A DNA stretch of 64,000 bases from an uncultured Neglectibacter sp. (lineage in GTDB: Bacteria; Bacillota; Clostridia; Oscillospirales; Acutalibacteraceae), in the NCBI GenBank assembly GCA_946554335.1, contig CAMNSA010000003.1:1-64000 (forward strand). Direction: 5' to 3'. Both the position numbers and the translations under genes were made by a program. Below, one piece after another: positions 43,756-46,653 of this stretch. The notes beneath the pieces are model-generated. The model saw only the letters and a list, made by a program, of their open reading frames with translations. It made no database searches and was not told where the DNA came from. The first letter of the stretch is position 1. Every line of letters starts with the position of its first letter.

Positions 43756-44712
43756 TTACCACCGGATAACACAGGCGGCGCTGGAGAGCCCTCCTCCGAA
43801 AGCGGAAAGCACCACATAATCTCCGGGCTGCAAAGCGCCCGCGCGGTTGAGCTCGTCTAACAGAATGGGCTCGCTGGCGGAGGAGGTATTCCCCACCCGG
43901 TCGATGTTCACGAAAAACTTCTCCGGGCCGATCTCCGGCAATCTCCTGCGGGCCTCCTGGATAATGCGGTAGTTGGCCTGATGGGGGATCACCGCCTTCA
44001 CCTGTTCGCCGGAAATACCGGCCTTTGAAAGCACAGAACGGATATCGTTCACCATAGAGGTAACGGCAAATTTATAGGTCTCCTGCCCCTGCATATGGAT
44101 AAAGGACTCCTGTGGGGGCCTTTCGTAAAAGGGGGAATTGTTCCAGGCGGTGGGAATAGAGATGATGTCGTCTCCACCCTTGGTGTGCAGCTCGCTTGCA
44201 AGGTATCCGTCCCCCTCGCCCAGCACTGCCGCGCCCGCACCGTCTCCGAAAATGCAGCAGGTCCCTCTGTCCTGCCAGTTGAGAAGCCCGCTGATGCGTT
44301 CACTGCTTACCACCAGCGCCTTTTTCACCGCTTTCCTGGCGAAAAAGCCCGCGGCCACCTCCAGCCCGAACAAAAAACCCGGACAGGCCACATTCATATC
44401 AAAAGCAGGACAGGAGGCTCCCAGACGGTTCTGCACCATACCTCCCAGGCCGGGAGAAATGGTATCCGCGCTGATAGTGGGCGCGATGATCAGGTCCAGC
44501 TCCTCCGCTCTTACCCCGGCGTTCTCCAGGGCAGCTTTGGCGGCGGCCGCTCCCAGGTCTGTCACCGTCTCCGTGGTACAAACCCGGCGTTCCTTCACGC
44601 CGACCCGCTTTGTGATCCATTCGTCAGAGGTCTCCACCATCCGGGAAAGATCATCGTTGGTGACCACTTTTTCCGGCAGGGCACTGCCCGTGCCTAAAAT
44701 TCGAAAGCTCAT
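43756..44712 (-). CDS. fabH: Beta-ketoacyl-ACP synthase III
   Basis: GTGSALPEKVVTNDDLSRMVETSDEWITKRVGVKERR; FDMNVACPGFLFGLEVA; VIPHQANYRII. Confidence 0.97.
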   Translation of the reverse strand: MSFRILGTGSALPEKVVTNDDLSRMVETSDEWITKRVGVKERRVCTTETVTDLGAAAAKAALENAGVRAEELDLIIAPTISADTISPGLGGMVQNRLGASCPAFDMNVACPGFLFGLEVAAGFFARKAVKKALVVSSERISGLLNWQDRGTCCIFGDGAGAAVLGEGDGYLASELHTKGGDDIISIPTAWNNSPFYERPPQESFIHMQGQETYKFAVTSMVNDIRSVLSKAGISGEQVKAVIPHQANYRIIQEARRRLPEIGPEKFFVNIDRVGNTSSASEPILLDELNRAGALQPGDYVVLSAFGGGLSSAACVIRW

Positions 44713-44798
44713 GCTCCGCTCTCCTCATGATTCTTCAAAAATTTCCCCGGTTTGACAGGCTTTTCACCGGTTTTTCCCGAGGGAATCCTAACCTCTTA

Positions 44799-44827
44799 AT
44801 TTTACCGGAAAATGGGGGATTTGTCAA
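44799..44827 (-). promoter_or_regulatory. Predicted promoter of FAS II operon with palindrome over -35
   Basis: Minus strand TTGACA-N17-TAAAAT; -35 is inside TGTCAAATGACA (44822-44833). Confidence 0.7.
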
Positions 44828-44852
44828 ATGACAGGAATGGTTTTCCTACCGT

Positions 44853-44878
44853 AAAAAGGAGAGTCTGAAAGGCTCTCG
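44853..44878 (-). terminator. Weak intrinsic terminator after erm
   Basis: Minus strand GAGAGCC-TTTCA-GACTCTC-CTTTTT. Confidence 0.55.
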
Positions 44879-44893
44879 CAAATGATGAAGCAT

Positions 44894-45676
44894 CTAAGAG
44901 CAAAATTTTTTCCAGCATCGGAAAAGGCAGAGCCATTGCACATACTCCATGTTCCCGTCCTTGGGAATAGGCGGCAGGCCCGCAAGGCGCAGAGCAGTGG
45001 AAATCTGCTTTCCTGTCAGCAGACTTCTAAGCCCGTCTTTCCAGGCGTGCTCCAGAAAAAAACGATACTCTCTCTGCTGCTCCCAGGGCAGGTCCGGCGG
45101 GTCTTTTCGCCTGAGCTCCAGCAGCGCCGCGTCCACTCTGGGGGCAGGATGAAACTGGTCCCTGGGTATTTTGGCCGCCGTCCGGGCTTCAAAATAGGGG
45201 CAAAGCGTATACGCGGCGAGTCCATTGCCCGTGAACCGCTTGGCAGCGCCCCACTCCACAATCAGCCACGCCGCCCGTGGAGGCCTCCCGCACTGGGTGA
45301 GTCGCCGGAGCATGGCGGTCGTCTGGGAAAAGGGCAGGTTTGCAAACACCTTATAGGATCCCTTGGGGAGGGGCGTTTTGAGAAAATCTCCCTCTATGAG
45401 CGTGAGCCTGTCCTCACCGGCAAAGCGCTCCCTTAACCGCGCGCACAGCATAGAGTCCAGCTCCACGGCGGTCACCCGGCCGCAGCGCTTTACAAGCTCC
45501 CGGATGATATGCCCCTTTCCGGGGCCTATTTCCAGCACATGATCGCTCTTTCTTATATTTGTAAGGCCTATCAGCCGCTGTATTTCCTTTCTGCTTGTAA
45601 GAAAATTCTGCGAGGCCCACAAGGGGGCCTTTGCCCATAAAGGGGTCCCTTGGGTATGACAAATATTTTTAGGCAT
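44894..45676 (-). CDS. Erm-type 23S rRNA (adenine-N6)-methyltransferase
   Basis: SQNFLTSRKEIQRLIGLTNIRKSDHVLEIGPGKGHIIREL; FANLPFSQTTAMLRRL; VEWGAAKRF; FHPAPRVDAALL; EYRFFLEHAWK. Closer to Erm than to KsgA/RsmA at the motif IV and VEWG-AKR positions. Confidence 0.85.
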   Translation of the reverse strand: MPKNICHTQGTPLWAKAPLWASQNFLTSRKEIQRLIGLTNIRKSDHVLEIGPGKGHIIRELVKRCGRVTAVELDSMLCARLRERFAGEDRLTLIEGDFLKTPLPKGSYKVFANLPFSQTTAMLRRLTQCGRPPRAAWLIVEWGAAKRFTGNGLAAYTLCPYFEARTAAKIPRDQFHPAPRVDAALLELRRKDPPDLPWEQQREYRFFLEHAWKDGLRSLLTGKQISTALRLAGLPPIPKDGNMEYVQWLCLFRCWKKFCS

Positions 45677-45710
45677 GAAAAAAGCACCTCTTTCGCAAAG
45701 CTGAGTAATG

Positions 45711-45764
45711 CAAAAAGAGACACAGCAAAGCAGTCCGCCTGCTGGCGGAGACTCTGCTATGTCC
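45711..45764 (-). terminator. Intrinsic terminator/attenuator between erm leader ORF and erm (near-symmetric, could work on + strand too)
   Basis: Minus strand GGACATAGCAGAGTCTCCGCC-AGCA-GGCGGACTGCTTTGCTGTGTC-TCTTTTTG. Confidence 0.85.
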
Positions 45765-45767
45765 TTT

Positions 45768-45806
45768 TTATTTCCTCAAACGAAAGACGGCGCAGAAAAT
45801 TCCCAT
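45768..45806 (-). CDS. Putative Erm leader peptide MGIFCAVFRLRK (in-frame alternative ATG at 45821)
   Basis: Hand translation ATG GGA ATT TTC TGC GCC GTC TTT CGT TTG AGG AAA TAA; AGGAGG at 45822-45827 (15-nt spacer to this ATG); RLR motif; stop 3 nt before terminator arm. Confidence 0.75.
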   Translation of the reverse strand: MGIFCAVFRLRK

Positions 45807-45859
45807 GCCTGTTGTCTTCATCCTCCTGTCTCACCGGGATCCCGGCTATTGTGAACTTC

Positions 45860-45888
45860 ATTATAACGAACGGCGGCGGATCTGTCAA
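45860..45888 (-). promoter_or_regulatory. Consensus sigma-A promoter for erm leader
   Basis: Minus strand TTGACA-N17-TATAAT, exact consensus hexamers, 19 bp after the upstream SDR stop. Confidence 0.9.
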
Positions 45889-45906
45889 ACAGCAGCCGCC
45901 TCGCCC

Positions 45907-46653
45907 TCAAATGACAAATCCTCCGTTGACCCCCAAAACCTGACCGGTGATAAAGGAATTCTCCGCAAGGAAAACAGCTGCGTGGGCCACCTGCCGGGGC
46001 GTGCCCAGACACTCTAAGGGGGTCTCCTCTTTCAGGGCTTCCAGATCCTCTCTGGAAAGCTCCCGGTTCATTTTGGTCTCAATAACTCCCGGCGCAATGC
46101 AGTTGACCCGGATCCCGGAAGGTCCCTCTTCCTTGGCAAGAGCCTTCGTGAGACCGATGACCGCCGCTTTGGAGGCGGAATAGGCCGCCTCGCAGGAAGC
46201 GCCTGTCTGGCCCCACATGGAGCTGATATTGATGACAGAGCCCCTCTTTTCCCGGATCATGGGAACAAGGGCCCGGCGGGAACAGAGAAACACGCCGGTG
46301 CAGTTTACCGCGAAGATCCTTTCCCACTCAGGGAGAGAAAGCTCCGTAAAAAGTCCTTTTTGGGAGATGGCGGCATTGTTCACAAGCACCTCGAAAAATC
46401 CCATGCGCTCTTCCGCCTGGGAAAACATTCTCTCTACCTCGTCCTCCCTGGAAAGATTCGCCCCAAAGGCGTGGGCCTCTCCTCCCTGCTCCCGGATCTC
46501 AGAAACCGTACGCAAAGCGGACTCCTCGTTCTGAAAAAAGTGAAGGGCTACGCCAAAGCCCTTTTGCGCAAAGGCCAGGGCAAGGGCTCTTCCGATGTCG
46601 CCGGAAGCTCCGGTGATCAGCACATTTTTCACAGCGGGTTCTCCTCCTTCCAA
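45907..46653 (-). CDS. SDR family oxidoreductase (FabG/YmfI-like)
   Basis: KNVLITGASGDIGRALALAFAQKGFG; VLVNNAAIS; YSASKAAVIGLTKALAKE; PGVIETKMN. Confidence 0.9.
   Translation of the reverse strand: MEGGEPAVKNVLITGASGDIGRALALAFAQKGFGVALHFFQNEESALRTVSEIREQGGEAHAFGANLSREDEVERMFSQAEERMGFFEVLVNNAAISQKGLFTELSLPEWERIFAVNCTGVFLCSRRALVPMIREKRGSVINISSMWGQTGASCEAAYSASKAAVIGLTKALAKEEGPSGIRVNCIAPGVIETKMNRELSREDLEALKEETPLECLGTPRQVAHAAVFLAENSFITGQVLGVNGGFVI

Follow-up and report, generated by a model that had tools for sequence, protein, structure and literature searches.

What controls the erm gene on the minus strand of the 64,000-nucleotide stretch analysed here (referred to as the window; uncultured Neglectibacter sp., contig CAMNSA010000003.1), and does the short open reading frame (ORF) followed by a GC-rich hairpin in front of it act as a drug-sensing switch? 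The gene product matched PF00398, scored above the cut-off of NF000499 (218.2 bits; cut-off, 212) and below that of the KsgA model TIGR00755 (121 bits; cut-off, 171), and had ErmC' as its best relative in the PDB. It was 72% identical to the Erm of Acutalibacter sp. 1XD8-36, which marks the genome of the window as Acutalibacter-like, and by family is expected to methylate A2058. A first-pass annotation, made from the letters of the DNA, had placed a promoter, palindrome, Shine-Dalgarno (SD) sequence, ORF, hairpin, and the erm ATG on the minus strand, and all of these positions proved correct. The features of the region are as follows.

45860-45888, minus strand: sigma-A-type promoter TTGACA-N17-TATAAT, agreeing with the consensus at 12 of 12 positions
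45833-45846, minus strand: 5' hairpin GCCGG-GATC-CCGGT, close to where the transcript is predicted to start (from the fold)
45822-45827, minus strand: SD sequence of the leader, AGGAGG (from the sequence)
45775-45810, minus strand: arm 1, the end of the spacer and the leader ORF, pairing with arm 4 through AGGCATGGGAA, GCGCC, TCTTTCGT, and TTGAG
45768-45806, minus strand: leader ORF, ATG...TAA, 12 codons, encoding MGIFCAVFRLRK, with the predicted RLR stall motif at codons 9-11
45711-45770, minus strand: predicted intrinsic terminator hairpin and T-tract, nested between arms 1 and 4 (from the fold and covariation)
45671-45705, minus strand: arm 4, the erm ribosome-binding site and start codon, in which CTCAG, GCGAAAGA, GGTGC, and TTTTCATGCCT pair with the leader
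45674-45808, minus strand: the only match in the window to the covariance model R1 (27.4 bits, E 2.8e-4)
44894-45676, minus strand: erm, encoding a predicted Erm-family 23S rRNA methyltransferase of 260 aa (NF000499, PF00398), with the ATG at 45676
44857-44885, minus strand: hairpin and T-run directly after erm, GAGAGCCTTTCAGACTCTCCTTTTT, a probable terminator (read from the sequence)

We propose, with a probability of roughly 0.78, that erm is controlled by a macrolide-inducible attenuator of two layers, built like that of tlrB in B. subtilis. The ORF, its R-x-R motif, the geometry of the terminator, and the pairing between arms 1 and 4 are read from the sequence, its conservation, and covariation.

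Congeners also had near-consensus promoters in the corresponding position (e.g. TTGACA...TATAAT in L031), and the 2.1 kb region scanned contained 3 promoter-like sites versus 0.6 expected. The 12-bp palindrome of the first-pass annotation (45834-45845) was present, and is better described as a short hairpin, in which 45846-45842 is paired with 45837-45833; its counterparts at the equivalent place in congeners differed in sequence (GCCGGGCCTGCCCGGT in L031 and GCCCCATTGGGGC in L005). It lies close to the 5' end predicted for the RNA and is possibly an mRNA stabiliser. The folding energy of the leader RNA (45853-45660) was -80.6 kcal/mol (z, -6.4), and none of 200 shuffles was as low. When the attenuator region was scanned against Rfam, no match reached the gathering score and only chance-level matches were obtained; the sole Rfam match in the window was an S10-Clostridia ribosomal protein leader (RF03136; 27492-27567, minus strand).

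The peptide MGIFCAVFRLRK corresponds to the short leader with a C-terminal R/K-x-R/K that characterizes the tlrB type. Erm relatives were taken from whole genomes and GTDB contigs, their upstream regions were compared, and a leader was accepted by a strict rule: SD, start codon, 5-17 codons, and RxR within the last codons. Rather than being lost in homologous loci, an R-x-R leader by this rule was kept at 34 of the 42 related erm loci, versus 0.11 expected from dinucleotide shuffles. Most of the 8 loci missed by the rule had an R-x-R ORF by eye (e.g. L038, L046, L050, L062, and L070), and none was seen even by eye in L011 and L063. Nearly all upstream regions of Erm relatives contained a tiny ORF ending in RIRK, RLRK, RTRQ, RLRN, or similar, followed by a hairpin and T-tract. 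As controls, no strict-rule R-x-R leader was found at the ksgA loci of related genomes (0/18), and, among homologues of RlmA, any RxR ORF was detected in only 3 of 48 under a looser rule, with a strong R1 match in none. The codons of the two Arg residues (CGN or AGR) and the start codon (ATG/GTG/TTG) varied among erm loci, indicating that selection acts on the peptide.

Two reservations attached earlier to this ORF were not borne out. The upstream in-frame ATG at 45821, which abuts the SD, was not kept in congeners (GGAGGACAGAGGGAACAGGCATG in L031), and the leader therefore most likely starts at 45806. The long spacer between the SD and start codon, regarded as a weak point, was conserved, at 13-16 nt, in most of the homologous loci; outside Acutalibacter, it usually contained ACACCT, complementary to the erm SD (AGGTGT).

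The GC-rich hairpin and T-tract occupied 45764-45711 (minus strand), with the stem starting 3 nt past the leader stop codon, and the offset between stop codon and stem across loci had a median of 0 nt. A local terminator scan found 4 candidates versus 3.6 expected, no better than chance, and the case thus rests on conservation: the terminator helix covaried among homologues. The arrested ribosome was modelled, after tlrB and ErmDL, with its P site holding the middle residue of RxR. By this computation, 4 nt (median) of the 5' arm of the terminator would be covered, and in 26 of the 32 loci three or more of the final 5 nt of the 3' arm would be freed; the mean computed hairpin stability shifted from -23.9 to -14.9 kcal/mol (~9 kcal/mol; 32 loci). 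The modelled ribosome covered the terminator base, as in the tlrB type, across most of the family (3 nt or more in 28 of 32 loci); at this locus it would stand over just 2 nt of the GC-rich stem, besides the pairs of the stop codon and A-tract with the T-tract. This geometry and the conservation of the leader strongly support the original proposal of an RLR leader and intrinsic terminator upstream of Erm. On the other hand, an alternative pairing of GAGACA with TGTCTC, also proposed there, was absent from the minimum-energy fold, and L005 and L007 keep GAGACAGGAGG without TGTCTC. The T-tract was interrupted in the nearest congeners, L002, L003, and L004 (TCTCTTTC), so that the terminator there may be weak, and no terminator was recognised in L060.

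Although the first-pass annotation was right about the RLR leader, terminator, and Erm, its attenuator was incomplete, the pairing of the leader with the erm start having been missed. In the fold, 45810-45775 was paired with 45705-45671, a segment that contains the erm SD and ATG, and the terminator lay nested between the two; this contact between the leader ORF and the SD and start codon suggests a second, translational layer. A leader region paired with the SD and start of the methyltransferase gene, again as in the tlrB type, was indicated by both the fold and coevolution: the duplex energy between arms 1 and 4 averaged -25.5 kcal/mol for cognate and -17.7 kcal/mol for swapped arms (0 of 20,000 permutations), and the cognate advantage survived correction for composition. 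The signal was weaker for the eight Acutalibacter loci alone (547 of 20,000 permutations). In alignment A1, consisting of 17 non-Acutalibacter leaders, 76.8% of cells paired, and double-change cells numbered 73, versus 35 in shuffles and at most 42 in the slid control, which is partly biased because the structure was derived from the A1 sequences themselves. RNAalifold on a first mixed alignment had yielded no useful consensus, a problem that was solved by clade grouping. Masking of the ribosome footprint in the thermodynamic fold did not free the erm SD family-wide (mean unpaired, 0.25 to 0.11), since arm 1 is partly upstream of the footprint in many loci. The accessibility of the SD rose modestly at this locus (0.01 to 0.19), and the SD was also modestly freed in the loci closest to it (L001-L004), in which the SD complement is inside the ORF. 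In this modelling, the translational half of the switch appears less certain than the transcriptional half.

These results bear on whether one layer would suffice. If the terminator alone were regulated and the pairing between arms 1 and 4 were a by-product, a clear terminator and T-tract directly past the stop codon would be expected, as found in most loci; ermK has been described as transcription attenuation (PMC5418344), and the footprint masking did not free the SD in silico. However, arms 1 and 4 coevolved strongly, yet arm 4 is transcribed after the terminator and cannot influence it, and the closest congeners keep the pairing while their T-tracts are degraded; we consider this explanation unlikely. 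Still less probable is a purely translational attenuator of the ermC type, in which transcription is unregulated and the hairpin is a mere spacer. The pairing of the erm SD and start codon in the fold, the weak T-tracts of L002, L003, and L004, and L060 with no recognised terminator are consistent with such a device, but at this locus and most others, a GC-rich hairpin with a T-run and a covarying stem stands precisely at the stop codon.

The covariance model R1 was built from A1, with no Acutalibacter sequence in training. A covariance search in related Clostridia had been suggested by the first-pass annotation, and R1 recovered the element at 45674-45808 (minus strand), which was also the best match across the whole genome (E 0.011). 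R1 matches were found in 8 of 394 genomes of the class and 11 of 400 of the phylum, several weak ones being chance-like and weak matches being lost under strict filters. Strong matches stood before Erm genes. Three weaker matches (L109, L190, and L193) preceded RlmA(II)/TlrB-like genes, with the leaders MSIAFIRLR, MSTHFMRLR, and MGITFIRLR, and two (L188 and L189) preceded a different Erm-like clade, assigned by sequence resemblance only; the nested fold was present in all five. The weak matches L108, L191, L192, and L116, with no leader/Erm context, were treated as chance. A weak match in L195 (E 0.004), where a hairpin would occlude the site of ribosome binding on a serine recombinase gene, was probably also due to chance. 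Realignment of the whole family with R1 was discarded, antisense copies having been picked up because the element is nearly palindromic.

Sensing of arginine supply or general translation stress, instead of macrolides, might be read into two Arg codons near the stop, one of which is AGG. This is very improbable: the leaders have a C-terminal +x+ with mostly Leu/Ile in the middle, their Arg codons are CGN or AGR (once Lys) with no run of Arg, and the controlled gene is Erm, while the non-Erm leader-bearing R1 matches are RlmA(II)-like 23S rRNA methyltransferases. An unregulated erm beside a chance hairpin and ORF, as the chance-level terminator scan at the single locus would allow, has a negligible probability in view of the conservation, covariation, and independent covariance-model match.

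The two-layer attenuator has its closest counterpart in B. subtilis tlrB (yxjB), reported in mBio in 2019, with the leader MIIQFIRYR (PMC6851288). That study described a terminator and mapped an SD-sequestering hairpin, but found no antiterminator; a tylosin-dependent toeprint was located at RYR, Y occupying the P site and R the A site, and changing R-Y-R to A-Y-A abolished induction (PMC6851288). The drug-stalled ribosome blocks the terminator and SD-sequestering helix, NusG-dependent pausing is needed, and the response is to tylosin, the RYR motif showing no stalling with erythromycin (PMC6851288). The erm locus shares with tlrB a short leader ending in R-x-R, a terminator directly downstream, an SD-sequestering helix with the leader, and a 23S rRNA methyltransferase as the target, and differs in the Lys that follows RxR and in the target itself: RlmA(II) (G748) in tlrB, and Erm (A2058, by family) here.

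Ribosomes stall at RLR of ErmDL with erythromycin and telithromycin (PMC8298421). The ErmD/ErmK leader (MTHSMRLRFPTLNQ as quoted in the first-pass annotation) resembles the present one in RLR, a stall with Leu in the P site (predicted here), and an erm target (PMC8298421, PMC5418344), and ermK also in transcription attenuation (PMC5418344). To judge from the descriptions, RLR is central in ErmD/ErmK and ermK has an antiterminator, whereas RLR is C-terminal here and the terminator abuts the stop codon. Listeria rli80-hflXr similarly has an RLR leader and terminator before a macrolide/lincosamide resistance gene, but uses an antiterminator and anti-antiterminator, and its target is HflXr (PMC6310831). 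The system of ErmCL and ermC is similar to our proposal in that a sequestered erm SD is freed by a drug-stalled ribosome, but is without a terminator, and the MGIF start common to both leaders, once noted as a resemblance, was not conserved: the leaders of congeners are MLICVSFARLRK, MGICAIFRLRK, and MIICTVAKLRNE, in which only the C-terminal +xR motif is kept. The arrest peptide of ErmCL is of the IFVI type.

Stalling, read-through, translational release, and the identity of the drug are modelled on the published experiments with tlrB and ErmDL. In the absence of a drug, the ribosome would translate MGIFCAVFRLRK and depart at the stop codon, the terminator right after it would form, and transcription would usually end; in read-through transcripts, the leader ORF would pair with the erm ribosome-binding site and start, leading to poor translation of erm. 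Once a macrolide (or ketolide) occupies the exit tunnel, the ribosome would arrest while its P site holds Leu10 and its A site Arg11. With the terminator base under the leading edge of the ribosome, RNA polymerase would continue, and the position of the ribosome on arm 1 would open the erm start. Methylation of A2058 by Erm would then reduce drug binding and close the switch. Since erythromycin causes no stalling on RYR of tlrB, RxR alone does not fix the inducer.

The erm gene with its promoter and attenuator is located between an SDR gene and fabH (44712-45907), which are adjacent without erm in several congeners (e.g. L168, L173, and L178), suggesting that the unit was probably inserted there. 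No transposase was found nearby, and no gene neighbours of erm were shared even among relatives of 72-74% identity. Tepidanaerobacter (L044) and Acetivibrio (L071) were alike (90%) only over ~1.1 kb, corresponding to the promoter-leader-erm unit, and plasmid erm genes were less than 60% identical. Separately, the contigs of L048 (Thermoclostridium) and L049 (Syntrophomonas) were ~97% identical over 7.5 kb around erm, which is either recent transfer or contamination. Among 29 genomes of the same genus, Erm was found in 12 and a match to RlmA (PF21302) in 10, both occurring only in G007; these counts are uncorrected for phylogeny.

In Intestinibacter (L067, 3835-5100), R-L-R leaders were found in tandem: MNGGIASIRLRR before erm, and MNGGIASIRLRG after erm and before an HflX-family gene, recognised from sequence; the two leaders were 79% identical in DNA. 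The proteins of L109, L190, and L193 start with MSKN, as do many of the Erm proteins, hinting that gene families have exchanged the leader together with the first codons. We raise tentatively, at somewhat less than even odds, that one attenuator design (RxR leader, nested terminator, and pairing of the leader with the ribosome-binding site) is common to non-homologous macrolide-resistance genes across Bacillota, comprising RlmA(II)/TlrB-like genes and two or more Erm clades, Intestinibacter having a diverged version in tandem ahead of erm and hflX, and that it moves with the gene as a promoter-attenuator-erm cassette of ~1.1 kb. If so, the MSKN-type starts of Erm and TlrB-like proteins would mean that the leader and first codons were swapped between families.

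No description of this clostridial Erm leader family was found in the open-access literature, and the tlrB-type layout has apparently not been described for Erm before. The design itself is known from tlrB; what is new is its breadth in clostridial Erm and its sharing with TlrB-like genes. In a 2024 survey, the upstream regions of erm showed no pattern that was universally conserved, and independent origins were proposed for them (PMC11264731). The leader logic was the same here in Erm proteins just ~32-75% identical to that of the window, providing an attenuator family with one testable mechanism. These results suggest that, across a wide range of Clostridia, gut species among them, chromosomal erm is as a rule controlled inducibly and not constitutively. 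Phenotypic resistance tests performed without an inducer could miss such erm resistance.
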